A stretch of 64,000 nucleotides of DNA. Source: Dioscorea cayenensis subsp. rotundata (Eukaryota; Streptophyta; Magnoliopsida; Dioscoreales; Dioscoreaceae). The stretch is from NCBI RefSeq assembly GCF_009730915.1, contig NC_052487.1:2542001-2606000 (forward strand), read 5' to 3'. Shown piece by piece: positions 19,998-60,746 of the stretch (position 1 is the stretch's first letter; each line of letters begins with the position of its first letter). A program made the position numbers and the translations under genes. Under the pieces are notes generated by a model that ran no database searches, was not told where the DNA came from, and saw only the letters and a list, made by a program, of their open reading frames with translations.

Positions 19998-22900
19998 TTA
20001 AATTTCCCTGCATGATATAGACAATGTTGAAGGATTTCATTCAAATCCATGGTTATTTGCCAAAAAGATAAGAAGCAACCACTACAGACAAAATACAAGT
20101 CAATTCAAGTTCATCAACCTTTATAACCAAATAAATTTGCTCTCTTACATAATAAATCAAATCAGTGCCAGTTCAAGAATAGCAATTAAAATTAAGGGCC
20201 ACTATGAACGTGGTTAAATGGCAAGAAAATCAGTGAATCCAGGAATTAAACTTGGGCAATAACATATTTGGTAAAACTGTAAAAGACAGATGCACATAAC
20301 AAAGACACTAAAAAAAGAAAAGCTGCGTCATAAGAAAATCTAGGAGTTTAACCTGTTTCTTCGATGGAATTTTATCTCAGTCAAGAGAACTTCTTGTACT
20401 AGAATGTTCAACAAGAAAAAAAAATGAATAAACATGCATGCATTTACAAATTCAGCGGTTGGCTCTCTAGATTTCACAAGTGTAATTTTAAAGTTAGTGA
20501 TTCAAATAACTTTTTTTTTTTTTGGTAACTAAAGCATGTCATTGTTTCTGTATTTCGAATTGTTTGTTGACATAAACAAAAGGAAAACATCTGCCATGAT
20601 TTCACCTCTACAATCATAAGTGGATGAGATAGCTACTGTGTATTAAGAGGCCAGCAACTACCTGTGCAATAAACACAACAAACAAGATTCAAAAAATCAT
20701 GAACATCATAAATAAATAGGGAAGTTTAAAAATACTTACAAAAGTTTAAAAGACTGATGAAGAAGATAAGAAAAGGATGAAAATAATTGATAACTTATAA
20801 ATATGAAAAGAAAATTGAAGAAGTTGGGAAAATGGAAAAGATGAACAACTGACCTCCTAAATCATTCAAAAAGATAAATCAAGAAGTTATCATGAAAAAT
20901 CAATAAGAAAGCGGACAGGACGAATATGATAAATACAACCTTAATCAAGATAAAAACTTACCAAAAATAGGGAAAGAAAAAACAAACAAAAGTTATAGTT
21001 AGAAACTGTGATACACCATCAGTAATGTGAATAAGACAAAAACTCATGGAATCAACTTATCAAGAAAAAAATATAATATTTTTAAATTAAACATCCAGAT
21101 GCATGTTTTAAGGCCCTTTTAACAAATTATCATAATTGAGAAAGCTATTAAAGACAACAAAAAAGAATGAGAAAATCTACATGCAACATAAGAAATCATT
21201 AGAAGAAAGGAAAATTATGTGGTGATATGTCAATAGATGATACCAAACTAATAGCAGATACCTTGAATGGTGCATATTAACTGTCTACTTAGGTATTAAA
21301 CCAGACGTCACAAGTAGATTAGTGGACTTCCAAGATTTATGGTTTTCAATACTTAGCACAGACTACTTCAATCATTAATTAATTAAGAGGGTGTTTGCCC
21401 GTGGTGAATGGTTAACTAAAACAAATCGCAATAAGCAGTTCCATTCCTCTAACTTTTGCCTATTAATGTGTGAGAAACTATTTTCACATTTCTGTTAACT
21501 CCCTAAAAACAAAAAAATATCTAAACTGGGGGAATGAGCATTATTTGAAATTTTTTTTTTTTCCACTTTATAAATATAGCTCACCATAAAATAAAAACAA
21601 GTAACAAAGTCTAAGTTGAGTCCATTTTATAGAAATGGTGCCTAACCCTTGATTTCAACTTCACTCACTGCAACACAGACAAACAAGCAAGACCAAAGAG
21701 CATTTCTATAGCACCACGACTATTCACAAGGTAGTGGTCGATCAGCACAAGTAGTTCTATTCTTAATTTATGTGAACAACATAAATAAATAAATAAATAA
21801 ATAAACATTCAACAAATAAGACGAACAATCTAAAAGAAAATTCAGCCATTTGTTGTTAACTTTGGTTATTGGTTCAAAGTTACTAGTTTTTAAGAAGCTT
21901 CTTCTACTTTCTCGATTGATCTCATTTGTGGTTAACTGACTTCAAACAAAATCCGACTGAACTTGGGGAATGACAATTTTTAAAAAAAATTAAATTCACC
22001 AAATCACAAAACAAACACAAGAAATAACAGTAAGTCTGTCTTAATTCCACTTTATATAAGTGTTTTGCCCTATGTTCACACTACACCAGATTATAAATAA
22101 ACAATTAAAAGAACTCTTTTACACCCAGATAATACTAACAAGTTAATGCTTGATCAGCATAATTACTTCCAATCAACGCTCTGAAAAAAAAAATTAAAAA
22201 ACATTGAACAAATAAGATAACCACCAAAAAGAAAATTCATAGTTATTTTAAAAAGTAAAAATAGCATAACTGGTATACAATTATCATAAGCGGTGTCTTA
22301 GATGCAATTTTGTTCTATTTCAGTCAAGGCAATTTACTGGACTCGAATGTTCAATCAGATAATGGGCAAAGATGGTACTAGCATTGAACATTGTTCGATT
22401 TGCACAATCAAGTCCCTAAATTTCTGAAATATTGCAATACATATATATATAAAGAATCATTACTATTTGACCTGTCCCCATAATCCTATATGATGGTAAT
22501 CATATAACAATCGAGACCAGTCCAAAACGGGCACCATACAGTAAACCTGCCCAACCCAAATGGGGAACCATATGAAAAACTTACTGCCCAATCCCAGAAG
22601 TAAAACCTACAGGAAACCTGCCCAATCACAAACAAGGATAAATATATGGGAAACCTTCGGGTAATGGAGTTAAATGTAAAAAAAAAAAGATTGACAAGAT
22701 CAAAAATAGCGGATAACAAATCAATAAATTATTAAGGAAAGCTTATAAAAAAAATTTAAAAATAAATAAAGATAAGAAAAAGATAAAATCATTTAAAAAA
22801 CAAAATAGGAAAATTAAGAAATGAAAAGAAAAACCATACATCCAATCTTGAGAATCCCTAATAAATCATATAAAAAGATAGATCAAACTCAATAAGAAGA

Positions 22901-25553
22901 TTTGGGAAGAATAAATTATAACTAATTTTTTAAAATTAAAAAATAATTACAAACATAAAATTGAAAAAAGAAAACAAAGAAGTTAGAACTTAGAACCACA
23001 ATACACCGCTGAGCAAGTTATATAGAATTGTCAAAAATAAAAATTTAAAACACACGAGAGTGCGCGCGCACACAAAATTACATGTGAAAAGAATAAAACT
23101 TGGTTGGGGTCTACATTAACCTTGTAATAAACCATTAGCCATTACCCAAGCTTTCCCATTTCCTTCACATCATTATAAACAAACAAGACCTAAGAGCATC
23201 CCTATCACCACAAGATGTAATAATAAGTTAGTGCCTGATCAGCATAAATATTCATCAATCTAAGCTTTGTAGACAACATGAATAAAAAACACTGGACAAA
23301 CAAGATGAACAGTCTAAATGAAAATTCATAGTCATTTCAGAAAGCAAAGATAGCATAACTGGTATCACAACATACACATATCATAAACAGAACGAAAATA
23401 GTCTAGTTATGGTTTTATCAACTGAGATTAGAACAATATGGGGGATCCACATGAATGGCAGCTTGTTCAAAAGGATGCAGATGTACTCCCCCTCACAGCG
23501 AAAGCCTTCATTTCTTTCCACCTCTGTTTATCAATGCAATATCATATGAGAAAAGAAAATTCTTATTAACACAATGCACAACCATATATTGCAAATAGAA
23601 AACATCAACAAAAAGAAATATCACCGAGTGCTCTTGGGTGGTGTCTGGCTAGGTGGTGGAGGCAGTTCTTCCTCAGGGGAAGAAGATGACTCTCCTTGAA
23701 CATTCCCAGCCTGAATATTAATTAACAAAATTTCTTAGTCAATCTCTTCATCTAATAAATGAAAAGAAAAACATAACCGGGAAATAATTTGAAGCTTATA
23801 CAAACTTAACCCACATCAAAGACAGATTCTGCTGCAGCTGCACTTGGTGGCTGAACCTGCGGTGGAGCCCTGGGAGCTGGCCTTGCTGGTGGGCCCAAAG
23901 GTGGCTGCGGCAGTAGCGGAGAATAAGCAGCTACAGGTTGATCATCAACTTCCACAGGCAGGTATGGGGGGAGCCCCACATTGAGCAGCATCGACATTGC
24001 CTGTTATAAAACGAAGACATAACATGAGTTGCTTGTAAATCCATGCTTCAGATGAAAAAATTCCTCCCCTTTTCCTCACTACCGTATGTGAGCCATATGA
24101 CTTTTAAATCATGCAACTTGCCATGAATTCCATGGCAGTACACAGTAACAAAGAAATGGAAGAAAAATACCTTAATGATATATGTTGAGGATAGATACCA
24201 AGCTGGCCTTTTTTTTGTGTGTGGCCAAAGGAAATATAATATATACATATATATATACCAGTTCTATTCTAAAAGAATGAAATAAGAACATTAAGCAAAT
24301 GGTCTTTTGAATGCACTACTAACAGCATAACATATACAGATACTTGAGCGGGGCAATCATATACACAAGCAGGTAAAGATGGTGAAAAACCACAAGAAAA
24401 TAAGATTCAGAACTTCAAAATTATCAACAATTTGCATAATGCTTAGGCCATCAAGTTATCAGCATCAACTTCTGGAATCTTCACACATATATAAAACAGA
24501 TCGGCACTAAAACAGTCATACACAGTTAATAATCTAACAAGATACCAAAGATTGATGCAAAAAATCAAACAGTAAATCCATAGAAATGACTTCTAGATCA
24601 ATAACACCACCAAATAGACCTCCAAAATCACTCCATCAAATAATTGATTTCTTTGTTTAAACAGGATAACAAAAGGCAAGATCACATATTAAAGAAATTA
24701 TCAAACAAGATACCAAAGATTGATGCAAAAAATCAAACAGTAAATCCATAGAAGGGCTTATAGATCAATAACACCACCAAAGCGACCTCCAAAATCACTC
24801 CATCAAATAATTGATTTCTTTGTTCAAACAGGGTAACAAAAGGCAAGATCACAAATTAAAGAAATTATCAAACAAGATACCAAAGATTGATGCAAAAAAT
24901 CAAACAGTAAATCCATAGAAAGGGCTTTTAGATCAATAACACCACCAAATTAACCTCCAAAATCACTCCATCAAATAATTGACTTCTTTGTTCAAACATG
25001 ATAACAAAAGGCAAGATCACAAGTTAAAGAAAATATCAAACAGATACCAAAGATTGATACAAAAAATCAAACAGTAAATTCATAGAAAGGGCTTTTAGAT
25101 CAATAACACCACCAAATTGACCTCCAACATCACTCCATCAAATAATTGATTTCTTTGTTCAAACAGAATAACAAAAGGCGAGATCACAAATTAAAGAAAT
25201 TATCTTTCAAGGCTGAAAATTTCTCCCAAGAAGCAATCAAGAAACCAAACAACATCAAATAACCGAAACCCTAATCAAACTAGAAACGCAAGAGGGAAAA
25301 ATGTATACCCGACAGAAAGCCCTAGCCAACTCAGGGAACGCCCTTAAGATCGACATTGCTTCTTCTGGGTTCTGATTAATTAGCGCCTGCAACATCATAA
25401 TTAAAAAAAAAATATCAAAACTCTTGCAGAAAAGCAACAAAGAAACAGAAGGCTGTGAGGAGAATTGATCAATACCATCAGCTGGCTTGTCACCCGGAGA
25501 AGTTCCATGTACATTTCACGAACGTTGTCACCAGGGGGAGGCTGCGATGCCAT
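19998..25553 (-). CDS. Hinge-only ESP1 paralogue, type 1 copy 1 (five exons, open)
   Basis: Predicted exons are 25553-25476, 25386-25309, 24000-23811, 23694-23625 and 20007-19998, coding 141 residues with all junctions in phase. It starts MASQPPPGDNVREMYMELL, followed by SQLMALINQNPEEAMSILRA and AFPELARAFCR, which align with the ESP1 hinge (exons 1 and 2 there; exon 2 is also 78 bases). Exon 3 gives MLLNVGLPPYLPVEVDD and a Pro/Ala-rich stretch, exon 4 GESSSSPEEELPPPPSQTPP. The frame ends three codons into the remnant of ESP1 exon 6, so the C-terminal domain is lost. The exon 4 acceptor (AAG/GAGAG) was chosen because it keeps the frame; it is a TAG in other copies. A TATA box lies upstream. 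Expression is unproven. Confidence 0.65.
20010..23620 (-). other. Long intron of type 1 copy 1 with three related modules
   Basis: The intron separating the proline-rich exon from the last short exon is about 3.6 kb, against 1.7 kb in ESP1. Related landmarks recur inside it: a GATCAGCAYAA-type anchor near 21740, 22157 and 23236, and an AATTAATTAAGAGGGTG segment near 21375. A GATGCAATTTTGTTCTATTT block near 22300 has a weaker relative near 20360. It looks like repeated internal duplication. No genes are seen in it. Confidence 0.55.
24541..25203 (-). repeat. Four tandem copies of a 167-bp unit in intron 2 of type 1 copy 1
   Basis: The sequence GATACCAAAGATTGATGCAA begins at 24541, 24709 and 24876, with a one-base variant (GATAC instead of GATGC) at 25043, a period of 167-168 bases. 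The copies differ by only a few bases. Units at 36, 46 and 60 kb show one copy or a different expansion, so this one is specific to this unit. Confidence 0.9.
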
Positions 25554-25612
25554 GTTTTTTTGCTCTGGTCTCTTTTGGAAATTTCCCTTCGGACATTAGG
25601 GCCGAGCACTGG

Positions 25613-26439: not shown

Positions 26440-29400
26440 GTCAATGGATTTCTCACCATCAGCATAAAATGGCTGTTTTACTCAACTGCTTTGTTTAGTT
26501 GGCAGGAAATTGATCTACTCGGTGGTGAGGCTTACTACTTGCTGAAGGAGATTCCCTTCTATCAGTTATTATCTGCATTAAGTACAAGAGAAGACATCAG
26601 TCAAAGAAATCATTTGGTTCAGTGAACCTCAGATGCCTGGCACAGAGGCCATCTTGCTAGAAGGCACTGGTGGTGGCCTTGGCAACCAAGCCAGAAGCAA
26701 TGGCTTTTCCATTAGCCTGAGTGCTTATGTTGCAAGGAGTTCCCAACTAAAACTCTAAAGTCAGCACCCATACTCAAAACGTCCCTGCATATTTGAGACA
26801 TGTTGAAGGGAAGCATCTCATTCAAATCCATAGTGTCATGAGATTAAAAAATAAAAAATAAAAGCCAACCCCACAACTGTTAACCTTTATGACTAAATTT
26901 TCAATAAAACTACAGATATTTGTTCTCATATACAATAAATCAATCTGTGCCAATTTTCAGAAGATTAAGGGGCACCATGGAATTTTCTTGAATGCCAAGA
27001 AAATCTTTAAACCTGGGAGTTGAACATGGATCATACTATATTTGTGATACATTACGAAGAAAATAAAAAATGCAAAACTTTGTGATAAGAAAAGGAGAGC
27101 TTAATCTTGTTTATTGGAAAAGGTGTCTTGGATGCAATTTGTTCTATTTTATTCAAAGAATTTGCTATGTTAAAATGCTCGACACTTAAATGGGATGATG
27201 TTATGATTGCAAATCATGGATTTTATCTGCAAATAACTAAATCATACTACGAAAAGAACATAGGAAGTATTTGGAATTGTTTGTTTTAAATAAGGAAATA
27301 TCTAAATGATTTCACCCTTGCAACCATGTTGGGATGAGAAGGATATTGTGTAATAAGCGTAGAATAATCAAAATTTTTAAAACAAGAAAGACATAAAGAT
27401 AAGGAATATCATCACATAATAAATAAATAAATAAACTGTACAGAAGTGTATAAGAATTAAAAATTTAAAATATAAGTGAAGATAAGCAATGGTAAAAAAA
27501 ATAATTATTATATTCTAAACAAAAAAACACACGTCAGGAAGATAAGGAAGTTAGGAACAAAGAAAAAATCTACTTATCATGTGAGAATGACGCAATTAGA
27601 CTTCTTTAACAATTATCAACCATGAGAAGTTATAAAATTAAAAATAAAAAAGTAAAACATAAATGTAATAAAACAAGATAACGGATGTAGCACATTAAAA
27701 ATGCACTTTAGCATTAAATTTGTCTTTAACCATTAACTTAGACTTTCCAAGTAGGTAGCATTCTTTCCTATGTAGCATTTTTTTCCCATGCTTTATGGTG
27801 CTCAATGCACACCAGATGCTACTACTATCATTAATTAATTAATTAAGAACGTCTGGGTGAAGTAACTGAAAGAGTTAAAGTAGACCGAATCCATCCATGG
27901 GGGATAACATTGGCTACTAGAGTGTGAGAATCATCTCTCACTTCTTCAATTCACTCATGTTCAGCTTCCTTGAATTCAAACAAATCCTATCACAACTAAA
28001 GGAGATGACCATTTTTTTTTAAATTAAATTCATAATATCACCAACCACAAAACAAGCACAAGAAAGTAGCGCAAGACCTAACTTGCTTCTAATTTATACA
28101 AGTGGTGCTTTGGCCCTGTTTTCCCACTTCCTTCACCACATTATAAATAAACAAACCTAAAAGCATTCAAAGACGCCAAGAAGTATTAACGAATTAGTGC
28201 TTGATCAGCTAAATTACTTCCAATATATGTTCCGTAAATAGTATGAATAAAAAATATTGAACAATATAATATCGACAATCTGAGCAAAAATTCATGGTCA
28301 TTTCATAAAGCAAAGATGGCATAATGCTCAATAAGAAAATCGGCAAAGATGTCAATTGATTGGAAATAATTTTTTTTACATCATATCCACATGATCTAGC
28401 TCCTGGGTTTCTAAAACATTGTAATACAATATAAAATTTGTGGTTCAAACAATTACTACTTGACCCAGTTATGTCATCAAAAATTGACATATTTTAAATG
28501 TTTGTTAACACCAGGAAAAGCAAGGGAAAACAATGTCATGTCCACAATCATATAAAGGTAAAATGGCCATTGTTAATACAGATGGCAAGGAAGCAATTTG
28601 ACCAATCTCAAACAAGAAACTATGAGCAAATAAGGTTCAAAGGAAAAGTAAAATCACATAATAAATAAATGAATTAATCAGTAAAACTAAAAAGAAAAAA
28701 AAAACATAAAAACTTAAAGATCAATGAAGATAAGAAAATGACAATATAATTTATAGCCTAATACTGAAAATTAAACAGTTAGGAAAACATCCACTCCCCC
28801 ACTCAAGCTATACAATAAACTATTGAAAAACTTAATCAAGAAGTTATCTAGGAAAATCAATAAGACGAATAAAACATCATTTAAAAAAAGAACAATAAGT
28901 AATTTGAGAATCATTGTGCACCACCATTTGTGAGGTGAATAAGATAAAGACTTGCATAATCTAGTCATAAAGAAAAGGATATGATTAGGCATGCCTAAAC
29001 AAATTACCAACATTGAAAACACTATAAATTAAAAACAAAAAGAATTGTAAAATACATATGTCTACAGAGAATCATAAGAAAAGAACCATAAAAAAATATT
29101 CCGAATAGGGCATATTACTTCGACCGCGGCACATTAACCCCCACTAAACCATTTACCTTGTTCTTGAGCATTAATCCACAATTCACAAGCAGGTAGCATT
29201 TTCTTCCACAATTTACAGTGTTCAGCATAGCAAATACTGCTGCCATCACTGTCTAATTAAGCGGCATTAGCTCATCGCTAATGGTTAGGCAAAAGAATTC
29301 AAAAAGCAGACCCACTCCTCTAACTATTGGCTGATAATGTCTCAGAAACTTCTTCCGCTTCTTCATTTTCTCCTATTCCCTCATTGATTGTAACTCAACT

Positions 29401-31090
29401 CAACAAACCTTTATAAACAGGACCAAATGGCCATCCTTTAAAAAATTTCAATTCATAAAAATCACTAATTCACGAAACAAATACAACAACTAACACTAAA
29501 CCTAATTTGTTCCACTTGACAGAAGTTGGGATTTACCCATTCTTTCCTACTTCCTTCACCGCATTATCAATCTAAGAGCATTCCTACTGCACCTAGATGT
29601 ATTAAAAAGTTAGTTCTTGATCAGCATAAATACTTCTATTCTAAGCACTGTAAACAACACGAACAAAAAACATTTAATAAATAAGATGCACGATCTACGA
29701 GAAATGTCATAGTCATTTCAGAAAGCGCACATAGCATTGTCAGTATCACACCATACATATAACATAAACAAAACAAAATAGGCCTTAGTTCATTATTTAA
29801 CAACTGAGACAAGAACAACATTGGGGGTCCACATCAGTTGCAACTTCTTCAGAAGGATGCAGATGTAGTCCCTCACAAGCAAAAGACTTCACTTCTTATC
29901 TCCTCTGCTTTTTCATGCAACATCAAGTGAAAAAAGAAAATTACTTATAAACACAAACCACAACAATATATTGCAGATAAAAAATAAATATCAACAGACA
30001 GCAATATCACCTAGTGCTGTTGGGTGGTGTCTGGCTAGGCGGTCGAGTTTCTTCTTCCTCAGAGGGTGAAGATGGCTCTCCTAGATGATTCCCACCATGA
30101 ATATGCATTAACAAAATTTCTTAGCTGTACTCTTATTCTAATAACAGAAAAGACAAACATAAAGACTGGGAAAAACTTTCAAGCTTATATAAGCTTAACC
30201 CACATCAAATGCAGGTTGTGCTTAGGGTGCAGTTGATGGCTGAACCTGAGGTGGAAAATGAAGCAAGGGAGTTGGCCGTGGTGGTGGGCTCAAATGTGGC
30301 TGCGTCAGCTTGATCAACAAAATTATCATCCCCATCCACATCATCATCCATAGAAGCATCAGTTTCCAGAGACAGGCATGGGGGAAGCCCCACCCTCCGC
30401 AACAACAATTCTGCCTGTCAGGAAACAAAATAAAACAAAGCATTAGTTGCATGCAGATCCATACTTCAGTTGACAAATGTCTCAAAAAATTTTCTGAGGC
30501 AAGAATTTTCCATCAATCATGCAACTTGTAATAAATTTCATGGCAAAATTTGGACACAATAATGGAAGAAAGACAACTAACAGGTATGTGTTCACAATAG
30601 ACACCAGTCAGGGCATTTTTTTGCCAAAGGAAATAAATGAAATATTAAAAAAAAACCCCAGTTACCAAATCAAGAAAGCACATACAAATCATCAAACTCA
30701 ATTGGTCAAAAAATCAAATGACAAAATGAAACCAAAACCCTAACCTAAAAATAAAAAAAGATAATTTCACATTAAGATCATTAAACTCGTCAGATCAAGA
30801 AGACAAATAATAACACAAAACAAAAACCCTAACGACAAAAAATATTAATAATAATAATACTCTAAAGAGAGATCACATCAAATCAAGATTGGCGTGGAGC
30901 ATCTCCCTGCCAGCCTCCAGGTTCTCGTCAACGATAGCCTGCAAAACCGATTCCCAAATCATCAGAAATCTTAACGAAGAGAGCATTAAAAAAAAAAAAA
31001 AAATGGAAGAAATGAGAACCTTGACACTGTGCATCATCTCCATGAGCTGACCTAGGGATGGAAGTCAAGCAGGAAATCATTGCCGGAGCC
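26440..31090 (-). pseudogene. ESP1 type 2 copy 1, broken
   Basis: This copy retains an ESP1-like promoter (GAAGCGTCTTCTCTTCC near 31132), but the ATGATGGCG start is degenerate. Exon 1 (about 31085-31020) and exon 2 (about 30940-30890) survive as fragments: the hinge reads AIVDENLEAGREMLHANLDL, then hits a stop where ESP1 exon 2 would continue, and the usual donor is lost. Exon 3 (about 30420-30200) gives AELLLRRVGLPPCLSLETD, but the proline-rich part lies in another frame. An exon-4 equivalent lies near 30092-30012, exon 6 near 26795-26600 and exon 7 near 26575-26440 (QEMLM region). No continuous protein can be read. Confidence 0.8.
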
Positions 31091-31429
31091 CGGGGGAACG
31101 CTAGGCCGGCACCTTCTCGTTTCTCTTTGAAGCGTCTTCTCTTCCGGCGTTCAACGGGGAGTTGAACTACTAATTATATATCTCTGTCAGAAAACTGTTA
31201 ACGGATCGGGTCCACTTCGGAGCTTCGCTGGGCGCAGCATATAGACCCGAATCCGAAATGACAACGTTTTACATCCTGCCCTACATTTACGAATCGGGTC
31301 TACATATATTTTTTTTTTTTTTGTTAAAAATTGTCCAACAAAATGATAAATTGGTTTCTAAGATATAAAAAAAAATTTCGGAAAAAACTCCCCACATAAA
31401 GATGTTCTTATGATTCCGGATGCATTTTA

Positions 31430-33146: not shown

Positions 33147-34659
33147 ATTCCTTTATGGCAAAAAATGTCTTAAAGTTCCTTAACTTTGATAATGCCATTG
33201 GGGTGGACATTGCGCACAGTAAGTATGGCAATCTGAATTTCTGGTTGGATTCTGCTCCTCCCAATTGCTCACGGGCTTTTCGTAGTCTCTGCAGAACCGC
33301 TTCTATCTTGAAACCTTTTTGTTGGATCAATACTGTTAACCCTTTCCATACCTCTTTTCTTTTTGATCCATGGCTTTTTGATGTGCCCGTTGCTTTTAAA
33401 CCAACCTTTCTGAATGTAAACTCTGATTTCCAAACTATCAATATGATTGATTTGATCTATGATGGCATTTTGAACATACAGAATATAAGATCTTTCTTTG
33501 GTGATAACTTGAACCACCTGATCTCCACTCTTGGTTCTATTGATGTCGAAGGCACTAATCACTGGGTTTCAAGCCCTAAATCTTCCTGCATCAGTATCTC
33601 TTCAGTGGTTTTTCTCCGCTTAAATCATAACGCCTTCTTGTCTGAGCATTGGTTGGGTTGGAGCAAACTCTGGAAAATTGAAGTCACCCCTTGTATCAAG
33701 CACTTTATCTGGCTTCTCCTCCATGGCAAAATCTCTACTACTGATTATCTCAGCAGCAGCATCAACCTGGGTCCCAGAAGTTTGTGTATCCTTTGTAATA
33801 TTGAAATGGAATCTGCTGACCATATGTTTTACCATTGCAGCAAAGCTCAAATTGCTTGGAGTATTCTTAGGGCCAATATTGGTCTGAGCCTTTACTTCTC
33901 TGACAGCATTAGCTCTGGAGCTTGGATAAGTGATTACAATCTTCCTATATTTACTGTTTCTCTTATTTCTGCAATTATATGGTTTCTGTGGAAAGCTCGT
34001 TGTGAAGCCATCTTCAAAAACATCACCCATAATTTCCCCCTGATTATTAACAGAGCTATTGCTCATGCTGAATTCATTCAAGAAGATACAAACCTTTGTG
34101 AAAAGCGCCCACTCCTCACCAACTTCAATCATTCCGAAGGCCTCTTCCTTTTCTCCACTGCAAATTGGAACTCTGTCAGAGAGATAGGGTATACTGTTTT
34201 TTTATTTCAAACTCCAATTGCCACGTTTCCATTGCAGGTTGCTCTGCTTTCCCTGCTGACTCAACTCTTGCTGCTGAGCTCCATGCCATAGCAATTTCTT
34301 TGCGCACTGTTGCTGAAAGGCAGTTAAAACATTCAGTACATTTTCACCAGCAATCCGGAAATCCCCAACTTGATTAAATCCAACAGAAATCTGATCCTAT
34401 GACGATTGTCTCATGTGATTCTGAGTGTCAAGCTTCTCATTGAGAATGCGGGAAACCAAAACATCATTGGCATACCCAGAAATTGGATGGATCCTAACAC
34501 TAAGCTTGTTGTTTCAGGAGCCAACATTCATGCTCTTAATCTATTCTTGTCTGGTCGCGATCTCCTTAGATGGGTCATGAAGAGCTTTTGTAATTTTGGT
34601 TTCATCTTTTAGTTTAGCTTTCCTGTTGTTTTTGTGTATTTGTACTTTCTTTCAATAAA
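33147..34659 (+). mobile_element. L1-type LINE, 5'-truncated, in type 1 unit 2
   Basis: A 378-codon open stretch (33155-34291) encodes the region after the reverse transcriptase of a plant L1-like LINE. It has an FLFDPWLFDVP motif, then a reverse-transcriptase zinc-binding domain with KHFIWLLLHGKISTTDYL and CILCNIEMESADHMFYHC (a C-x2-C-x8-H-x4-C pattern). An RNase H-like part (ADSTLAAELHAIAISL, about 34240) follows in a shifted frame. The RT core and the endonuclease are missing. The left junction, after ATCCAAAAC, is the same as in the copy at 41900, so both derive from one insertion. The right end abuts the LPPYLPV exon of the ESP1 copy, a secondary rearrangement. Confidence 0.85.
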
Positions 34660-45700: not shown

Positions 45701-46275
45701 TTCTTTGTTTAAACAGGATAACAAAAGGCAAGATCACAAATTAAAGAAATTAGCTTTTCAGGCAGAAAATTTCCCCCAAGAAGCAATCAAGAAACCAAAT
45801 AACATCAGATAACCCAAACCCTAATCCAAAGAAAGGACTTCTAGATCAATAACACCACCAAATTGACCTCCAAAATCACTCCATCAAATAATTGATTTCT
45901 TTGTTTAAACAGGATAACAAAAGGCAAGATCACAAATTAAAGAAATTAGCTTTCCAGGCTGAAAATTTCCCCCAAAAAGCAATCAAGAAACCAAACCCTA
46001 ATCAAACTAGAAACACATGAGGGAAAATATACCCGACAGAGAGACCTAGCGATCTCAGGGAACGCCATTAAGATAGATATTGCTCTTTGTGGGTTCTGAT
46101 TAATTAGCCCCTGCAACATCATCAAAAAAAAAAAAATCAAAACCCTTGAAGAAAAGCAACAAAGAAGCAAGAGGCGGCGAGGAGAATTGATCAATACCAT
46201 CAGCTGGCTTGTCAACTGGAGAAGTTCCATGTACAATTCACGAAGGTTGTCACCGGGGGGAGGCCGCGATGCCAT
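39748..46275 (-). CDS. Hinge-only ESP1 paralogue, type 1 copy 3 (five exons, open)
   Basis: Predicted exons are 46275-46198, 46110-46033, 44942-44753, 44636-44567 and 39757-39748, with lengths 78/78/190/70/10, identical to copy 1, and coding 141 residues. It starts MASRPPPGDNLRELYMELL; the hinge continues GLINQNPQRAISILMAFP and EIARSLCR; exon 3 gives MLHSVGLPPYLPVEIDDRAV and a Pro/Arg/Ala-rich run; exon 4 gives GESSSSLEEELPPPPSQTPP. The last exon adds a few residues and a stop at the same place as in copy 1, despite different bases. The exon 4 acceptor is a clear TAG. The last intron holds a truncated LINE in opposite orientation. Many amino-acid changes from copy 1 but no frame damage suggest selection. 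Confidence 0.65.
41900..43185 (+). mobile_element. L1-type LINE, second copy of the same insertion
   Basis: This has the same left junction and the same parts as the LINE at 33147 (KHFIWLLLHGKI, CILCNIELESADHLFYHC, RNase H-like tail). The first part carries extra frame damage and a deletion near 42080; the zinc-binding region is open from 42300 to 42920. It ends in a TTTCTTTATTTC tail and then resumes host sequence (GGGCACCATACAG) that is continuous in the unfilled site near 22529. An internal deletion near 43160 shortens its 3' end relative to the other copy. Confidence 0.85.
45467..46000 (-). repeat. Three tandem copies (about 165-196 bp) in intron 2 of type 1 copy 3
   Basis: TCCATAGAAAGGACTTCTA begins at 45467 and 45629, and a one-base variant at 45825. 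Each copy runs through GATTTCTTTGTTTAAACAGG and ends near CCCAAACCCTAATC. The repeat frame differs from the 167-bp expansion in type 1 copy 1, so the two arose independently. Confidence 0.85.
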
Positions 46276-46966: not shown

Positions 46967-47009
46967 TATATATATATATAGATCCAAAACTCACAAGTCA
47001 TTATTTTAT

Positions 47010-48309: not shown

Positions 48310-51300
48310 GGATTTCTCACCATCAGCATAAAATGGCTGTTTTACCCAATTTCTTTGTTTAGTTGGCAGGAGATAGATCAACCCGGTGGTGAGGCTTACG
48401 ACTTGCTGAAGGAGATTCCCCTCTATCAGTTATTATCTGCAATAAGTACAAGTGAAGACATCAGTCAAAGAAATCATTTGGTTCAATGAACCTCAGATGC
48501 CTGGCACAGAGGCCATCTTGCTAGAAGGCAGTGATGGTGGCCTTGGAAACCAAGCCAGAAGCAATGGTTTTTCCAATAGCCTGAATGCTCAGGTTCCAAG
48601 GAGTTCCCAGCTGAAACGCAAAAGTTGGCACCTATACTCAAAACTTCCCTGCATATTTGAGACATGTTGAAGGGAAGCATCTCACTCAAATCCATAGTGT
48701 CTTGAGACTACAAAATAAAAAATAAAAGCAAACCCACAATTGTTACCTTAATGATTAAATTTTCAATATAACTACAGATATTTGTTCCCATATACAATAA
48801 ATCAATATGTGCCAATTGTCAGAAGATTAAGGAGCACCATGGAATTTTCTAGAATGCCAAGAAAATCTTTAAACCTGGGAGTTGAACATGGATAATAATA
48901 TATTTGTGATACATATAAATGAAGAAAATAAAAAATGCATTACTTTGTGATAAGAAAAAGAGAGCTTAGTATTGTTTATTGGAAAAAGGTGTCTTCGATG
49001 CAATTTGTTCTATTTTATTCAAAGAATTTGCTATGTTAAAATGCTCGACATTTAAATGGGTAAAGATGATGTTATGATTGCAAATCATAGATTTTATATG
49101 CAAATAACTAATCATACTACGAGAAAGAACATAGGAAGTATTTGGAACTGTTTGTTTTAAAACAAGGAAATATGTAAATAATTTCACCCTTGCAACCATG
49201 CTCGGATGAGAAGGATAGTGTAATAATAAAAAAATTAAAACAAAAAAGACTCAAAAGATGAGGAATATCATCACATAATTAATAAAAATATATATATATA
49301 TATATAAATAAAATAAAAGAATTAAAAATTTAAAATATAAATGAAGATAAGCAATGGTAAAAAAAATTATTATTATTATATTCTAAAAAAAAACAAATGT
49401 CAGGAAGATAAGGAAGTTAGGAACTAAGAAAGAATTATCATGTGAGAATGATGCAATTAGACTTCTTTAACAATTATCAAAATAAAAATAAAAATAAAGA
49501 GGTAAAACATAGATGTAACAAACAAGATAACGGAAATAGCACATTAACAATGCACTTCAGCATTAAATTTGTCTTTAACCATTAACTTAGACTTTCCAAG
49601 TAGGTAGCATTCTTTCCCATGTAGCATTTTTCCCCATGCTTTATAGTGCCCAATGCACACAGGAGGAAGTATTAAAAAATTAGTGCTTTGAACAACTAAA
49701 TTACTTCCAATATATGTTCCGTAAATAGTATGAATAGAAAATGTTGAACAATATAATATCAACAATATGAGGGAAAATTCATGGTCATTTCATAAAGCAA
49801 AGATGGCATAATGCTCAATCAGAAAATCGGCAAAGATGCCAATTAATTGGAAATAACTTTTTTAGCATCATATCCACATGATCAAGCTCCTGGGTTTCTC
49901 AAACATTGCAATACAATATAATTTGTGGTTCAAACAATTACTACTTGACACAGTTACGTCATCAAAAATTGACATATTTTAAATGTTTGTTAACATGGGG
50001 AAAAGCAAGGGAAAACAATGTCATCTCCACAATCATATACAGGTAAGATGGTTATTGTGAATACCGATGGCAAGGAAGCGATTTGACCAATCTCAAACAA
50101 GAAACTATGAGCAAATATGTTTCAAAGGAAAAGTAATATCACATAATAAATAAATAAATTATTCAGTAAAACTAAAAAGAAAAATAAAATATAAAATATA
50201 TAAACTTAAAGATCAATGAAGATAAGAAAATGAGAATATTAATTATAATCTTAGACAGAAAATTAAAAAGCTAGGAAAACAACCAATCCCCCACTCAAGC
50301 TATACAATAAACTATTGAAAAAGCTTAATCAAGAAGTTATCTAGGAAAATCGATAAGAAAAATAAAACATTATTTGTAAAAAGAACAATAATTTTTTGAG
50401 AATCATTGTGCACCACCATTTGCGAGGTGAATAAGATAAAAACTCGCATAATCTAGTCATCAAACAGAAAAAGATATGATTAGGCAGGCCTAAACAAATT
50501 ACCAACATTGAGAAGACTATAAATTAAAAAAAAAAAAGAATTGTAAAATACATGTCCATAGAGAATCATAAGAAAAGAACCATAAAAAAGTATTCCGAAT
50601 AGGGCATATTACTTTGACCGCGGCACATTAACCCCGCACTAAACCATTTACCTTGTTCTTGAGCATTAATCCACACTTCACAAGCAGGTAGCGTTTTCTT
50701 CCATAACTTACTGTGTTCAGCATAGCACAGACTGCTACCATCACTGACTAATTAAGCGGGCATTAGCTCATAGTTAACGGTTAGGCAAAAGAATTCAAAA
50801 AGCAGACCCACTCCTCTAACTATTGGCTGATAATGTCTCAGAAACTTCTTGCACTTCTTCATTTATTCCTTTTCCCTCATTGATTGTTAACTCAACTCAA
50901 CTCAACAAAACCTTTATAAACAGGACCAAATGGCCATCCTTTAAAAAATTTCAATTCATAAAAATCACTAATTCACGAAACAAATACAACTAAAACAAAA
51001 CCTAATTTGTTCCACTTGACAGAAGTTGGGATTTACCCATTCTTTCCAACTTCCTTCATTGCATTATCAATCTAAGAGCATTCCTACTGCACCTAGATGT
51101 ATTAAAAAGTTAGTTCTTGATCATCATAAATACTTTTATTCTAAGCACTGTAAACAACATGAACAAAAAACATTTAATAAATAAGATGCACGATCTAAAA
51201 GAAATGTCATAGTCATTTCAGAAAGCGCGCATAGCATTGTCGGTATCACACCATCCATATAACATAAACGAAACGAAATAAGTCTTAGTTCATTATTTAA

Positions 51301-52560
51301 CGACCGGGACAAGAACAACATTGGGGGTCCACATCAGTTGCAGCTTCTTCAGAAGGATGCAGATGTAGTCCCTCACAGGCAAAAGACTTCACTTCTTATC
51401 TCCTCTGCTTATTCATGCAACATCAAGTGAAAAAAGAAGATTTCTTATAAACACAAACCACAACAACAATATATTGCAGATAAAAAATAAACATCAACAG
51501 ACAGCAATATCACCTAGTGCTGTTGGGTGGTGTCTGGCTAGGTGGTGGAGTTTCTTCATCCTCAGACGGTGAAGATGGCTCTCCTAGATGATTCCCACCC
51601 TGAATATTCATTAACAAAATTTCTTAGCTATACTCTTATTCTAATAACAGAAAAGATAAAGATAAACACTGGGAAAATCTTTCAAGCTTATATAAGCTTT
51701 CAACCACATCAAAGGCAAGTTGTGATTGGGGTGCAGTTGATGGCTGAACCTGAGGTGGAAAACTCAGCGAGCAAGCTGGGCTTGGTGGTGGGCTCAAATG
51801 TGGCTGCAGCAGTTCCCGAGAATAAGTAGCTTTAGCTTGATCATCAAAAATATCATCCACGTCATCATCCATAGAAGCATCCGCAGCAACAATTCTGCCT
51901 GTCAGGAAACAAAATAAAACAAAGCATTAGTTGCATGTAGATCCATACTTCAGTTGAGAAATGTCTCAAAAAATTTTCTGAGGCGAGACTTTTCCATCAA
52001 TCATGCAACTTGTAATAAATTATGTGGCAAAATTTGGACACAATAATGGAAGAAAGACAACTAACAGGTATGTGTTCACAATGGACACCAGTCAGGCCAT
52101 TTTTTTTTTGTCAAAGTAAATAAATGAAATATAAAAAACCTCAGTTACCGAAATCAAGAAACCACATACAAATCATCAAACTCAATTCGTCAACAAATCA
52201 AATGACAAAATGAAAACAAAACCCTAATCCAAAAATTAATTCACATTAAGATCATTAAAGTCGTCAGATCAAGAAGCCAAATGACAACAAAAAAAAACCC
52301 TAACGACAAAAAATAATAATAATACCCTAAAGAGAGATCACATCAAATCAAGATTGGCGCGGAGCATCTCCCTGCCAGCCTGCATGTTCTCGTCAACGAT
52401 AGCCTGCAAAACCGATCCCAAAATCATCAGAAATCTTAACAAAGAGAGCATAAAAAAAGAAAAGAAATGGAAGAAATGAAAACCTTGAGACTGTGCATCA
52501 TCTCCATGAGCTGGCCTAGGGATGGAAATCAAGCAGGAAGCCATTGCCGGAGGCCGGAGA
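48310..52560 (-). pseudogene. ESP1 type 2 copy 3, broken
   Basis: The layout is as in type 2 copy 1: exon 1 about 52556-52486, exon 2 about 52404-52338 (AIVDENMQAGREMLRANLDL, then stop), exon 3 about 51900-51695, exon 4 about 51600-51515, exon 6 about 48655-48505, exon 7 about 48436-48310. Exon 3 has lost about 37 bases that coded VGLPPCLSLET, which shifts the frame. The proline-rich part survives in one frame (PHLSPPPSPACSLSFPPQVQ). The ESP1-like promoter is at about 52580-52680. No continuous protein can be read. Confidence 0.8.
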
Positions 52561-52739
52561 AACGCTAGGCCGGCGCCTTCTCGTTTCTCTTTGAAGCGTC
52601 TTCTCTACCGGCCTTCAACGGCGAGTTGAACTACTAATTATATATCTCTGCCGGAAAACTGTTAACGGATCGGGTCCACTTCGGAGCTTCGCTAAATAGA
52701 CCCGAATCCGAAATGTCAACTTTTTTGCATTCTGCCCCC

Positions 52740-53430
52740 TCTCGGTCCTTGGTTGAAATGTAGAATTACATATTACTAGCTTTTTTCTATTTTAAGGTTT
52801 TCTTTTTAAGATAATTTCATGATTGGCAGTACATTTTATTCAATTGAAATGTCAAAATATTCACATTGTTAAAATTGAAACAATGTTCTTTTAAAAAATT
52901 AATATGCCAAAGGCATTTAAAGCAACACACATTTTAATCAATTATGTCAAAAGGACTACTGAAACACATTGCCTACATCGAATACATGGATCAAAACTAG
53001 TTTTATTCTAAATTTATATAGTTATTGCATTGTCAATTAGTACAATAAGTTTAAGTTGATTAACAAAATAATAAATTTATTTCAAAGACTACAAACAAAA
53101 TAAAATCTAAATATGAAGATGTTCTTATAATTCCTGATGTATTATAAAGCTAACAAAATATATACGATAAAGAAGATTTCAAATTTTTCGGTGTTGAGAT
53201 TAAAAGCTTTTTCTTCAAAAAAATCTATTTTGCTTTTCAAAATTTATAATTCTATTTTAGAGCAAGTAAAACTTGAAATATACATTTTTATACTTTAAAA
53301 AAAGTTCACCAAGGCAAAGCAATAAAAAATGCTCTTCCAATGCATAACTGAAGGAAAATAATTATTATTATAATAAATAAATTAATTAATTAATTAATTT
53401 AAAAAATTATTTTTGACAAATGTTTTACCT
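52740..53430. other. Spacer between type 2 copy 3 and type 1 unit 4
   Basis: AT-rich, with no gene. It resembles the region upstream of the parent ESP1 gene (17880-18500) and parts of 31700-31960 and 38090-38330, so it is the promoter-side flank carried with each type 2 unit. Confidence 0.5.
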
Positions 53431-54722: not shown

Positions 54723-57700
54723 TTAAACTTGCCTGCATGATATAGACATGTAGAAGTAAGGAGTTCATTCAAATCCATGGTTATTTGCCACAAAGATAAG
54801 AAGCAACCACTACAGACAAAATACAAGTCAGTTCAAGTTCATCAGCCAAACAAATTTGTTCTCTTACGTAATAAAACAAATCAGTGCAAGTTCAAGAATG
54901 GAAATTAAAATTAAGGGCCACTATGAACGTTGTTAAATGCCAAGAAAACAAGTGAATCCGCGAATTAAACTTGGGCCATAACATATTTCGTAAGAGACAG
55001 ATAAATATAAACAAGAAAACTAAAAAAAGGAGAACTACATCATACGAAAATCTGGAAGTTTAACCAGTTTCTTAGTCAAGAGAACTTCCCATTCTAGAAT
55101 GTTCAACAAGAAAAAAAATGCATAAACATGCATGCATTTACAAATCTATAGGTTGGCTCACTAGATTTCACAAGTGTAATTTTAAAGTAGTGATTCAAAT
55201 AACTGTTTTTTTTTTTTCAACTAAAACATACTATTAAAAAAACCAAAACTTTTCGGTATTTCAAATTGTTTGTTGAAATCAACAAAGGGAAAATATTTGC
55301 CATGATTTCACACCTCTACAATCATAAGTAGATGAGATAGGTACTGTGTATAAAGAGGCCAGCGGCTAATTGTGCACTAAGCGCAATGAACAATATTCAA
55401 AAAATCATGAACAACATAAATAAATAACCTAAGAAAGCTTAAAAATACTTGCAAAAGTTTAAAAGATTCATGACAAAAATAAGAAAAGGGTAAAAATAAT
55501 TGATAATTTAAAAATACAAAAAGAAAAATGAAGAAATAACCAAAATAGAAAAGAGTAATGACCAACCCTCCTAAATAACTTAAAAAGATCAATCAAGAAG
55601 TTATCATGGAAGATCATATGATAAATACAACACTAATCAAGATAATAACTTACCAAAAATAGGGAAAAAAAAACAAACAGACAAACAAAACAGTTCGGAA
55701 CTGTGAAAAACCATCAGTAATGTGAATAAGACAAAAACTCTTGGAATCAACTTATCAAAGAAAAAATATAATATTTTTTAATTAAACAACTAAATGCACT
55801 TTTTAGACCCTTTTAACAAATTATCATAATTGAGAAAGCTATCAAAGACAATAAAAAGCAATAAGAAAATCTACATGTACTATAATCATTAGAAGAAAGG
55901 AAAATTATATCGCAACATGGTAATAGATGGTACCACATGAATAGCAGATACCTTGAATGGTGCACATTAACCATGTACTTAGGTATTAATTAAACCAGGC
56001 GTCACAACTAGATGGGTTGATTTCCAAGATTTATGGTTTTCAATGCTTAGCACAGAATACTTCAATTATTAATTAATTAAGAGGGTGCTTGCCCTTGGTG
56101 AATGCTTAACTAAAAAAATTCTCAATAAGCAGATCCACTCCTCTAACTTTTGCCTAATAATTTGTGAGAAACTTCTTCCACATTTCCGTTAACTCCCTTC
56201 AAAAAAAAAAATATCTTAACTTGGGGAATGAGCATTCTTTTAAAAAAAAAATCATTTTATATATATCGGCAATATCGCTCACCATAAAATAATACAAGTA
56301 ACAAAATCTAACTATAGGCCATTTCAAAGAAGTGGTGCCTTAACCTTAATTACCACTTCCCTCACTACATCACAGACAAATAAACGAGACCAAAGACCAT
56401 TTCTATAGGACCAAGACTATCAGCAAGGTAGTGGTCAATCAGCAAAAATAATTCTATTTTTAAGTTATGTAAACAACATAAATAAAAAAAGAATTCAACA
56501 AATAAGACGAAAGCTAAAAGAAAATTCAGCCATTTGTAGTTAACATTGGTTATTGGTTCAACGTTATTAGTTTTTATAAGAAGCTTCTTCTACTACTCGA
56601 GTGGTCTCATTTGTGGTTCACTGACTTCAAACAAAACCTACATAAACTTGGGGAAATGACAATTTTTAAAAAAATTTAAATTCACAAAATCACAAAAACC
56701 AAGAAATAACAGTAAGTCTAACTTGCCTCCACTTTTTATAATTGTTTTGCCCTACTTTCACACTCACTTCACCACATTATAAATAAACAAGAACCAAGAG
56801 AATTCCATTACAAGTTAGTGCTTGATCAACATAATTGCTTTGAATCTAAGCTCTGAAATAAAAATGAATGAAAACAAAAATTGAACAAATAAGATGAACA
56901 ACCAAAAAGACAATCCATAGTCATTTTCGAAAGCAAAAATAGCATAAATTGGTATCACCATATACAAATATCATACGAGGTGCCTTAGTTGCAATTTTGT
57001 TCCATTTCAATCAAGGCAATTTATTTCACTGGAATGATCAACCAGAAAATGGGCAAAGATGTTACTAGCATTGGAAATTATTCAAATTACATAATCAAGT
57101 CTGTAGTTTTCCTGAAATATTGCAATTAAACAAAATGATTGGAATCATCACTATTTGACATGTCTCTACAATCATATGAGATGGTAATCTTGAATTGATA
57201 TAACAATCAAGACATATCCAAAACTGGAACCATATAGAAAACCTGCCCAACCCAAATGGAGACCATATGGAAAACCTACCGCCAACACCAGAAGAAAAAC
57301 CTAAGTAAATCTGCCCAATCACAAATGAGGATAAACATATGGGAAACCAATGGAGCGAGATGTACCAATAAGATTCACAAAAAGCAGCAAACAACAAACC
57401 TATACATTATTTAGGAAAGCCGATATAAAAATTTTAAAAATAAATAAAGATAAGAAAAGGATAGAATCATTTAAAGAAAAAGAAAGAAAGAAAAGAAAAT
57501 TAAAAAGAAACAAGAAAAACAATAAATCCTATCTTGAGACTCCCTAATTTATCATTTAAAAAAATCGATCAAACTCAATAAGAAGATTTGGGAAGAATGA
57601 ATTATAACTGAATTTTAAAAATTAAAAAAATAAAGATGAAAAAGTTAGAAACAACTGTACAGAACTGAGAAAGCTATATAGAATTGTGAAACCTATAATA

Positions 57701-60700
57701 CACCACTGAGCAAGCTATATAGAATTGTAAAAAAAAAAGAAATTAAAACACACACACAATAGTACGCGCACACACAAAATTACGTCCAGATACTAGTGAA
57801 TAGGATATAACTTGGTTGGGGTCCACATTAACCTTGTAATAAACCATTAGCCATGCCCTTCAGCATTCACAAAGACTTCACCAGCAGGTAGCATTTTTTC
57901 CCAAAATTTATGGGTGTTCAATGCTTAGCACAGACAAAAACCAATGATTAATTAATTAAGAGGGAATTTGCTAATACTGCACGGTCAACTAACTTAAGGC
58001 ATTCAATGAGCAAAACCACTCGTTAACTTTCCGCTACTGGCAAGTGACAAGCTCCATCCACTTCTTCATCTCCCTCCTTAACAAAACTGCTCTAAGCAAG
58101 AGAAAAATGGCCATCCTCTAGAAAAATCAATTTGCAAATATCACTAATCCCTAAACAAACAAAGGTAACAACACTAAGCCTCGCTTGCTTCCACTTTACA
58201 GGAGTTGGGATTTACCCAAGCTTTCCCATTTCCTTCCTACATTACAAATAAACAAGACCTAAAGAGCATTCCTATCGCAACAAGATGTGATAAGTTAGTG
58301 CCCAATCAGCATAAATATTTCTAATCTAAGCTCTGCAGACAACATGAATAAAAAACACTGAACAAACAAAATGAACAGTCTAAACGAAAATTCATAGTCA
58401 TATCAAAAAGCAAAGATAGCATTACTGGCAACACAACATACACATATCATAAACATAAAGAAAATAGTCTAGTTAATGGTTTTATCAACTGAGATTATAA
58501 CAATATTGGGGATCCACATGAAGGGCAGCTTGTTCAAAAGGATGCAGATATACTCCCTCACAGCGAAAGCCTTCATTTCTTTTCGCCTCTGTTTATTGAT
58601 GCAATATCAAATGAGAAAAGAAAATTCTTATAAACACAATGCACAGCCCTATATTGCAAATAGAAAACATCAACAAAAAGAAATATCACCGAGCGCTCTT
58701 GGGTGGTGTCTGACTAGGTGGTGGAGGTTGTTCTTCTGATGACTCTCCTAGATCATTCCCAGCCTGAATATCAATTAACAAAATTTCTTAGTCAATCTCT
58801 TCTTCTAATACATGAAAAGAATGACACGCAAAACCAGGAAATCATTTCAAACTTATACAAGCTTAACCCACATCAAAGACAGGTTCTGATGCAGGTGCAC
58901 TTAATGGCTGAATCAGAGGTGGAGCCACGACAGTTGCGCTTGCTGGTGGGCTCAAAGGTGGCTGCGGCAGTTGCGGAGAATAAGCAGCTACAGCTTGATC
59001 ATTAGTTTCCACAGGCAGGTACGGGGGCAGCCCCACACAGATCAGCATCAACATTGCCTGTGATAAAACAAAGGCATAACATGAGTTGCTTATGAATCCA
59101 TGCTTCAGATGAGAAATTCCTCCTCTTTTCCTCACTACCATATGTGAGCCATATGACTTCTAAATCATGCAACTTGCCGTGAATTTCATGACAAAACACA
59201 ACAAAAAAGAAATTGAAGAAAAATACCTTAATGGCCTATGTTCAGAATAAATCCAAGCAGCTTTTTTTTTTTTCCCTTTTTTGCAAAAGTAAATATAAAA
59301 TAAACACCAGTTCTATTCTAACAGAATGAAATGGGAACATTAAGCAAATGGTATTTTGAATGCACTACTCTATAACAGCATTACATAAACAGAAACTTGT
59401 GCAGGGCAATTATATACACACACAGGCAAAGATGGTGGAAACCCACAACAAGAAAATAAGATTCAGTACTTCAAAATTATCAACAATTTGCATAATGCTT
59501 AGGTCATCAAGTTATCAACATCAACTTCTGGAATCTTCATGCATAAATAGAACAGATCGGGGCTAAAATAGTCATACACAGTAAAATATCGAATAAGCTA
59601 CCCAAGATTGATGCAAAAAATCAAACAGTATATCCATAGAAAGGGTTTCTACATCATAGTTACCAAAAACACGATACGATCCAAGTAGCGAGGCACACAG
59701 GGATACAAGAAACTTGTATTGTATCGATACAAGAAACTTGTACTGTATCGATACAAGAAACTTGTACTGTATCGATACAATTGGTTATATAAAATACATA
59801 CAAAATTATAAAACTTTAATATTAATTCAAAAGGAAAAGATGTTCTTAGATTACTAAATAGATCCTAAAGTGCATAAGCATAACTTTTAATATGAAAAGA
59901 CTATTATAATTAAAGTTATAAAAATAATTAAGCAAACTTTAAAGAACTAATTTTATTGCAATTTTGAAGTAAATATAGATTATAATTTTATGTAATAAAA
60001 TTTTATATTAGATAATAATTTAAAAACTTATACTAGATTTAAAAATAAATAGCAATTTTATCTATAACAACTTTTAAAACCTAATAAATTGTAGCGTTAT
60101 CTATAACTATTTAAAAAAACAACTTAGATAGATTTTTATAAAATGTATCGTTAATTAATTTTGATAAGGCCCCTTTCATCGTTTCAGATCGCGTACCCAA
60201 TCAATCCAGAAAGAAAACAAACTCTGATTGAGTACAAGCGATCTAGATTGAAGATCTGTGGCGGCCTTAGCAAATCTGGTAATGATGTTCTACATCAATA
60301 ACACCACCAAATCGACCTCCAAAATCACTCCATCAAAAAATTGATTTCTTTGTTCACATGGGATAACAAAAGGAAAGATCACAAATTAAAGAAATTTTCT
60401 TTCAAAACTAAAAATTTCCCCCAAAAAGCAATCAAAAAACCAAACAACATAAGATAACCGAAACCCTAATCAAACTAGAAACTCAAGAGGGAAAATTGTA
60501 TACCCGAGGGAAAGACCTGGCCAACTCAGGGAACGCCCTGAAGATCTCCATTGCTTCTTGCGGGTTTCGATCAATTAGCACCTGCAACATCATAAAAAAA
60601 AAAAAAATCAAAACTCTTCTAGAGAATCAACAAAGAAGTAGAAGGCAGTGAGGGGAATTGATCAATACCTTCAGCTGGCTTGTCACCCAGAGAAGTTCCA

Positions 60701-60746
60701 TGTACATTTCACGAACGTTGTCGCCAGGGGGCGGCTGCGATGCCAT
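54723..60746 (-). CDS. Hinge-only ESP1 paralogue, type 1 copy 4 (five exons, open)
   Basis: Predicted exons are 60746-60669, 60581-60504, 59057-58868, 58747-58690 and 54732-54723, coding 137 residues. It starts MASQPPPGDNVREMYMELLW; the hinge continues VLIDRNPQEAMEIFRAFP and ELARSFPR; exon 3 gives MLICVGLPPYLPVETNDQAV and a Pro-rich run; exon 4 gives GESSEEQPPPPSQTPP. Exon 4 is exactly 12 bases shorter than in copies 1 and 3, an in-frame loss, and the frame stops at the same relative place. The acceptor of exon 4 is TAG/GAGAG. Intron 2 holds the 0.6 kb insertion shared with copy 2. TATA box at 60806. Confidence 0.65.
55000..58680 (-). other. Long intron of type 1 copy 4 with three related modules
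   Basis: As in type 1 copy 1, GATCARCA/AATCAGCA-type anchors occur near 56437, 56821 and 58306, with AATTAATTAAGAGGG segments near 56072 and 57951. The LINE seen at the matching place in copies 2 and 3 is absent: the sequence near 57226 is uninterrupted. No genes are seen. Confidence 0.55.
59657..60288. mobile_element. Insertion of unknown class, 0.6 kb, second copy
   Basis: Flanked by perfect 9-base repeats TCTACATCA (59648-59656, 60289-60297). It matches 35273-35859 along its length apart from a small internal repeat expansion. The inward ends share TTACCA. It is non-coding and specific to these two units. Confidence 0.6.
59721..59778. repeat. 24-bp repeat carrying the palindrome GTATCGATAC, three copies
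   Basis: The perfect 10-base palindrome GTATCGATAC begins at 59721, 59745 and 59769, with AAGAAACTTGTACT between copies. The related insertion at 35.3 kb has only scattered single versions, so this is a recent local expansion. Confidence 0.9.

Follow-up and report, generated by a model that had tools for sequence, protein, structure and literature searches.

The closest described relatives of the locus reported here are the ESP1-like proteins, in which, according to excerpts of two papers (PMC3538716, PMC7457121), the RRM is absent and the part that meets CstF-77 is kept; one to three ESP1-like genes are counted in higher plants in the same excerpts. Part of PMC8795450 refers to ESP1/RSR1 as suppressing transgene silencing, and part of PMC12354759 counts it as an auxiliary member of the cleavage stimulatory factor complex. 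The hinge of CstF-64, as put in a portion of PMC6294498, binds either CstF-77 or symplekin, the one contact excluding the other. Among the matches listed, hinge-only copies of ESP1 were named neither in titles nor in abstract openings.

Birth-and-death evolution of tandem duplicates yields one intact gene, several broken ones and some that stay open. The row of ESP1 copies analysed here has the same make-up, one intact, several broken and some open; it differs from such arrays in that its repeat unit carries two dissimilar derivatives of one gene. The derivative called type 1 is related to ESP1/RSR1 (At1g73840-like) by common descent, and neither has an RRM match; unlike ESP1/RSR1, type 1 has neither the C-terminal domain nor most of the large central exon. 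It is like the CstF-64/CSTF2 hinge (PF14327) in matching positions 29-70 of the 81 in the profile, and unlike CstF-64 in its score (22.4-26.0 bits, cut-off 27) and in the lack of RRM and CSTF_C matches.

The window, that is, the whole stretch of DNA that was analysed, comprises 64,000 nt (NC_052487.1, 2,542,001-2,606,000) of Dioscorea cayenensis subsp. rotundata, and all coordinates are window-based. An intact gene for ESP1, an RRM-less CstF-64-like protein and the parent of the copies, lies on the minus strand at 13672..17711. Its seven coding exons (17711-17619, 17519-17442, 16651-16613, 16509-15964, 15859-15773, 14088-13897 and 13806-13672) encode 389 aa, with GT/AG at 6/6 introns and two Pfam domains, CSTF2_hinge (48.6 bits) and CSTF_C (36.6 bits). 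A further in-frame ATG is found at 17714. When the matches of an assembly search were combined (best 12 matches scored), near-complete cover of the ESP1 protein was obtained at this locus only.

Nine derived copies lie upstream of intact ESP1, all in the same direction (minus strand), so that ESP1 stands at the end of the array, in the same window as copies of it. Counted from ESP1, the order is A, T1, D, T2, B, T3, C, T4, E, with 5' ends at 25553 (A), about 31.3 kb (T1), 36383 (D), 37.9 kb (T2), 46275 (B), 52.8 kb (T3) and 60746 (C). The repeat unit pairs a broken ESP1-like copy with a type 1 copy; type 1 starts are spaced by 10.8, 9.9 and 14.5 kb. The upstream sequence of ESP1 (18.6-19.9 kb) and those of T1, T2 and T3 match at 76-78%; read from this layout, intact ESP1 together with A is the last member of the repeat series. 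Copy E (69.3-73.8 kb, minus strand) lies outside the window and belongs to the same array, whose matches stop at about 73.8 kb when the next 60 kb past the window are compared. Furthermore, copy A (23600-25560), used as a DNA query against the 584 Mb assembly, gave 12 matches, all inside this array. The Pfam hinge family, run against the whole genome, gave no match at E 0.001 (4 candidates scored), probably because the domain is divided among short exons.

An earlier note on this DNA had described type 1 as three tandem copies of a preserved protein family. The three frames on the minus strand, starting at 25553 (A), 46275 (B) and 60746 (C), are indeed open across their five coding pieces, and each of the four introns has GT/AG borders. 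In copy A, these pieces are exon 1 (25476..25553), exon 2 (25309..25386), exon 3 (23815..24000), exon 4 (23625..23710) and the last 10 coding bases, including the TAA (19998..20007). In copy B, which rests on the same frame and splice-site evidence, they lie at 46198..46275, 46033..46110, 44757..44942, 44567..44652 and 39748..39757, and in copy C at 60669..60746, 60504..60581, 58872..59057, 58690..58763 and 54723..54732. The only length difference of C from A and B was rightly given as 12 bases, in frame, and the stop falls at an identical position in all three copies in spite of differing bases.

Two elements of the earlier gene model had to be replaced. The junction between exons 3 and 4, formerly drawn at 190/70 (so that exon 3 of copy A ended at 23811), keeps the frame, but its splice sites are not homologous to those of ESP1. 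Since the junction at 186/86 (186/74 in C), which is also in frame, uses sites homologous to those of intact ESP1, it was chosen instead. At this junction, the exon 3 donor (slash at the splice point) is GAT/GTGGGT in the copies and CAT/GTGAGT in ESP1; the exon 4 acceptor ATTCAG is common to the copies and ESP1, and the exon 4 donor /GTGATAT is that of ESP1 exon 5. The corrected piece lengths are thus 78/78/186/86/10 nt for A and B, with 74 nt for piece 4 in C, and the products measure 145, 145 and 141 aa in place of 141, 141 and 137 residues.

The second element was the 10-base last exon, which is in fact the initial 10 bases of a block with homology to the penultimate exon of ESP1, read in a shifted frame. 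ESP1 positions 13915-14064 (or 14066) match 19838-19982, 39588-39734 and 54563-54707 in A, B and C. This exon is entered in phase 0 by ESP1 and in phase 2 by the copies, which therefore meet a stop within four codons; the relic of the exon runs for about 160 bases past the stop (19838..19997 in A). If intron 4 were retained, a TGA would be read from the second intron base (CTCG/GTGATAT) in 3/3 copies. Farther upstream, exon 3 of the copies resembles ESP1 exon 3 at its start, and its end coincides with the donor of ESP1 exon 4, a large exon of 546 nt; the copies have no counterpart of most of that exon or of ESP1 intron 3. The four introns of type 1 thus correspond to ESP1 introns 1, 2, 4 and 5; type 1 does not show the intron loss of a processed pseudogene.

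The exon blocks, splice sites and hinge homology shared with intact ESP1 bear out the proposed descent of type 1 from this gene. As regards domain content, the hinge-like character of the N-terminal half was upheld: the likeness is real (E-values 1.3e-5 to 1.7e-4) but weak, all scores lying below the Pfam cut-off of 27 bits. CSTF2_hinge scored 23.9 bits in A (for the protein with the earlier 190/70 junction), 22.8 in B, 22.4 in C and 26.0 in the partial D. On these profile matches, the type 1 hinge is probably homologous but degraded. The absence of the C-terminal domain was upheld, as no CSTF_C match was obtained in A, B or C; clear C-terminal relics, detected with a translated query at E 0.14 or better, occur in the T units only (26562, 37350, 48426 and 61812). 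No RRM family matched A, B, C, the partial D or the parent ESP1 at E up to 1. In addition, sequence searches of the PDB with the hinges of the parent and of A gave a best E of 0.57, under unrelated names.

The count of three type 1 copies was too low, because the window holds a fourth, D, at 34658..36383 (minus strand). In D, exons 1 and 2 (36383-36306, 36151-36074) and 76 nt of exon 3 (34733-34658) are open, to the 77th codon, after which the copy is cut at 34658. Likeness to the other copies picks up again near 33077, and the interval holds a LINE-like open frame (33155-34291), so named by its likeness to one in B.

The type 2 neighbours are broken, as had been claimed: in T1, T2 and T3 the ATG is missing and exon 1 has a gap of 7 bases. 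T1 (26447..31282, minus strand, as are all the T units) has a TGA in exon 2 and a relic exon of the C-terminal domain (26473-26562) that contains stops. T2 (37283..37939) is mostly deleted. In T3 (48311..52771), exon 2 contains a TGA and exon 3 has lost 37 bases; its C-terminal relic exon is at 48337-48426. The exon 2 TGA, in the frame of ESP1, is common to T1 and T3; the exon 3 deletions of these two units are separate. T4 (61697..64000, continuing to about 65.9 kb past the window) is broken by stops in exon 3.

The reading that we consider rather probable is that A, B and C are ESP1 duplicates which once coded for protein and are now under relaxed constraint, possibly still expressed. An ESP1 gene would have been duplicated in tandem. 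In one derivative, type 1, the large central exon would have been mostly lost and the reading frame shifted ahead of the penultimate exon, leaving a coding capacity for no more than the hinge part and a short proline-rich tail. A unit of one ESP1-like and one type 1 copy would then have been amplified. Of this, the anatomy and order of the copies, their descent from a common source, the open frames of A, B and C and the losses in D and the type 2 units are shown by the sequence. Type 1 was probably coding at first, because in exons 1-2 the comparison of ESP1 with A, B, C and D gave dN/dS values of 0.21-0.39 (synonymous sites near saturation), with gaps of 12 and 3 bases only. After this early translation, constraint would have been relaxed, and A, B and C would be the duplicates not yet hit, perhaps still transcribed; putative effects, such as occupation of CstF-77 or symplekin by the hinge, would be a by-product or a residual function.

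To judge the intactness of the frames, indels were counted. Among A, B and C, the coding sequence holds a single indel, of 12 bases. Frame-breaking indels were absent from 0.30-0.35 of non-coding windows of 78 bases and from 0.03-0.11 of those of 186 bases. Dead exons (type 2 exons and post-stop relics) are the fairer control; they held 5 indels per 120 substitutions, a sum over seven alignments from which T2 exon 2, with its further gap, was left out. In the relic of the penultimate exon, 0 indels were found in 158 columns.

Neutral evolution was simulated from the majority consensus, and a run counted as intact when A, B and C all kept the start and the eight splice sites and were free of stops and frameshifts. 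The joint probability was 0.0009 at the dead-exon rate and 0.0004 at 6 indels per 120 substitutions (about 7 and 3 of 8000 runs), and 0/8000 with each of two intron indel rates. As these values are uncorrected for the choice of three intact copies from four type 1 or nine derived copies, they must be discounted at least a few-fold. By substitutions alone, 0 stop codons were seen for 2.84 expected (P=0.056). One observed change, taken alone, would count as a stop, and a second change in the same codon prevents it. The open frames thus go beyond chance barely when substitutions alone are considered, and moderately when all features are taken together.

These figures bear on the proposal that A, B and C are pure pseudogenes, untranslated since amplification, whose open frames are due to luck, to the choice of the intact three and to gene conversion. 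The neutral rate throughout, the value of P 0.056 for the lack of stops alone, the post-stop relic that is equally free of indels over 158 columns and the shifts of A-B and A-C closeness along the copies, suggestive of conversion, are all consistent with it. The joint probability of 0.0004-0.0009, before multiplicity, argues against it, and we consider it unlikely. Under relaxed constraint, the reading preferred here, the surplus of intact features would allow for some residual translation.

Selection on residues was examined by several counts. The earlier note had asked for dN/dS among the copies and had set a value near 1 as one half of its case against preservation; the ratios now available are above 1 for A, B and C by counting, and 1.15 by codon maximum likelihood (ML) on four copies. 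With the Nei-Gojobori method on the whole coding sequence, dN/dS was 2.71 for A-B (bootstrap 1.2-10.1), 1.34 for A-C (0.7-3.1) and 1.38 for B-C (0.8-2.9). Over 76 codons, D gave 0.95, 1.21 and 0.41 against A, B and C, respectively, and the four-copy ML on codons 1-76 gave omega 1.15 (grid 0.73-1.98). In exons 1-2, C and D differ at 19/156 sites, as compared with 340/4451 overall for the dead T1-T3 pair, a rough comparison since base composition differs.

Because the coding DNA is richer in G+C and CpG here, a context-aware null was used, in which substitution classes were taken from well-aligned introns and 3' relics. Under this non-coding null, 80 coding substitutions were seen for 81.5 expected, of which 32 (31.3 expected) fell in the hinge exons 1-2, 37 (34.0) in exon 3 and 8 (15.1) in exon 4. 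The adjoining intron 3 is also slow between A and B (3/104). Measured from the inferred type 1 ancestor, hinge replacements matched neutral ones in severity (P 0.39-0.45); in B and D, hinge residues lean slightly towards ESP1 (four-copy sum P 0.025-0.055). In this small sample of four copies, purifying selection on residues, hinge included, cannot be seen.

A simulation of Pfam scores was rejected as a measure of constraint. In it, one of 19 neutral variants of the A/B/C consensus (24.0 bits) reached the 22.4 bits of C, with 22.7, and 6/19 had no hinge match, an outcome that had the look of constraint. Its starting point was wrong: the majority consensus is not the ancestor, because ESP1-like states, LK.LID for example, are common to C and D. 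A rerun with a parsimony ancestor and BLOSUM scores showed no constraint relative to that ancestor.

Thus, the claim that the copies are preserved as proteins was not supported: the coding sequence drifts at about the non-coding rate, dN/dS is 1.34-2.71 among A, B and C, and a preserved family is weakly supported. Against relaxed decay, in turn, count the unlikely joint intactness, the deficit of substitutions in exon 4 and the C-D dN/dS of 0.41, as well as the rarity of indel-free non-coding windows and the summed likeness to the ESP1 hinge.

A simple codon ML for A, B and C gave omega 2.17 (grid 1.33-3.61), for which twice the log-likelihood gain over omega 1 was 7.7; by part, it gave 1.25 for the hinge exons, 4.2 for exon 3 and 1.06 for exons 4-5. 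Short proteins under diversifying (positive) selection, chiefly in the proline-rich exon 3, would give values such as the overall 2.17 and the 4.2 of exon 3. The naive estimate was rejected as proof of positive selection, since the context-aware null removes most of the excess. Other counts point the same way as the naive estimate. Variable columns of exon 3 are distributed as 16/14/5 by codon position, and its synonymous changes number 5 for 10.4 expected (P 0.03). Fixed differences between type 1 and the T units in exons 3-4 are 10/45, 6/46 and 3/53 by codon position, and T3 against A, B and C, over part of exon 3 and exon 4, gave dN/dS of 2.8-3.3. However, the whole coding sequence, corrected for base composition and CpG, departs from the null without significance (16 synonymous changes for 21.4 expected, P 0.10), the exon 3 test is one of three made on parts in addition to that on the whole, and the total rate equals the neutral expectation. 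Furthermore, dead T copies compared with type 1 give a similar pattern, and closeness between copies varies along their length, so that recombination can distort the counts. Diversifying selection is, in our estimate, quite improbable.

The proposal that A, B and C are working hinge-only decoys for CstF-77 or symplekin, acting in 3'-end processing or silencing, would require constraint on length and helix character only, and would dispense with RNA-binding and C-terminal functions. It would account for a joint intactness that is unlikely under neutrality and for a hinge profile match that persists in 4/4 type 1 copies. It also agrees with the retention of the CstF-77-interacting domain by ESP1 despite the lack of an RRM (excerpts of PMC3538716 and PMC7457121) and with the mutually exclusive contacts of the CstF-64 hinge with CstF-77 and symplekin (part of PMC6294498). 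No amino-acid constraint is visible in the hinge exons, and the hinge scores lie below the Pfam cut-off; working decoys, as judged from sequence, are doubtful. Still bolder is the idea of lineage-specific, fast-changing hinge-only ESP1 proteins, held open by selection as they diversify in sequence, that would titrate CstF-77/symplekin away from CstF-64/ESP1, which we would hold to be a long shot. The confidences behind these rival readings overlap and do not sum to one.

If the copies are expressed, they would provide natural fragments, hinge only, of a factor in 3'-end processing beside the intact gene, a dominant-negative tool made by evolution. If they are not, the array is a clear case of side-by-side decay of ESP1 duplicates, in which the dead sisters serve as internal controls, and it warns against taking open, spliced frames by themselves as proof of a preserved protein.

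A last point concerns the region past the stop. A stop far upstream of a splice junction favours nonsense-mediated decay. The mRNA of A and C could be subject to such decay if the intron about 160 nt after the stop were spliced, and this spliceable-looking intron would then weigh against working decoys. Candidate splice signals of the old last intron (GTTCAT ... ATATAG) are left in A and C; in B, its AG is gone.

When the three type 1 truncated ESP1 copies with open frames, A, B and C, were compared along their length (19.5-25.9, 39.2-46.6 and 54.2-61.1 kb of the window, respectively), the closeness of A to B relative to that of A to C was seen to shift. Near 25.9 kb, A differed from B at 83 and from C at 26 of 300 shared columns, whereas near 24.5 kb the corresponding values were 14 and 39. 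Such a pattern resembles the outcome of gene conversion or unequal exchange.

Intron 4 of copy B contains a LINE-type open frame (42300-42920, plus strand), which resembles one located in copy D, the fourth type 1 copy (33155-34291, plus strand). A profile scan carried out on the B frame alone gave a zf-RVT match of 53.6 bits. The insertion may predate the split of these two copies.

Direct repeats, with spacings of about 167 and 196 bases, were observed within the second intron of both A (24528-25209) and B (45501-46088). Because they differ in number between the two copies, this region of the intron aligned poorly.

Elsewhere in the assembly, partial ESP1-like matches with 61-80% identity were located outside the array at G000:C14:9549169-9549397 and G000:C17:2943434-2943586 (assembly coordinates), one of the two containing a stop. 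The window also carries, on the plus strand, a partial DUF1666 gene (7419-7850; profile match of 128.9 bits) and an ORF of repeated proline/tyrosine-rich units (GYRSPASVSRYAGPASS...; 993-1451).
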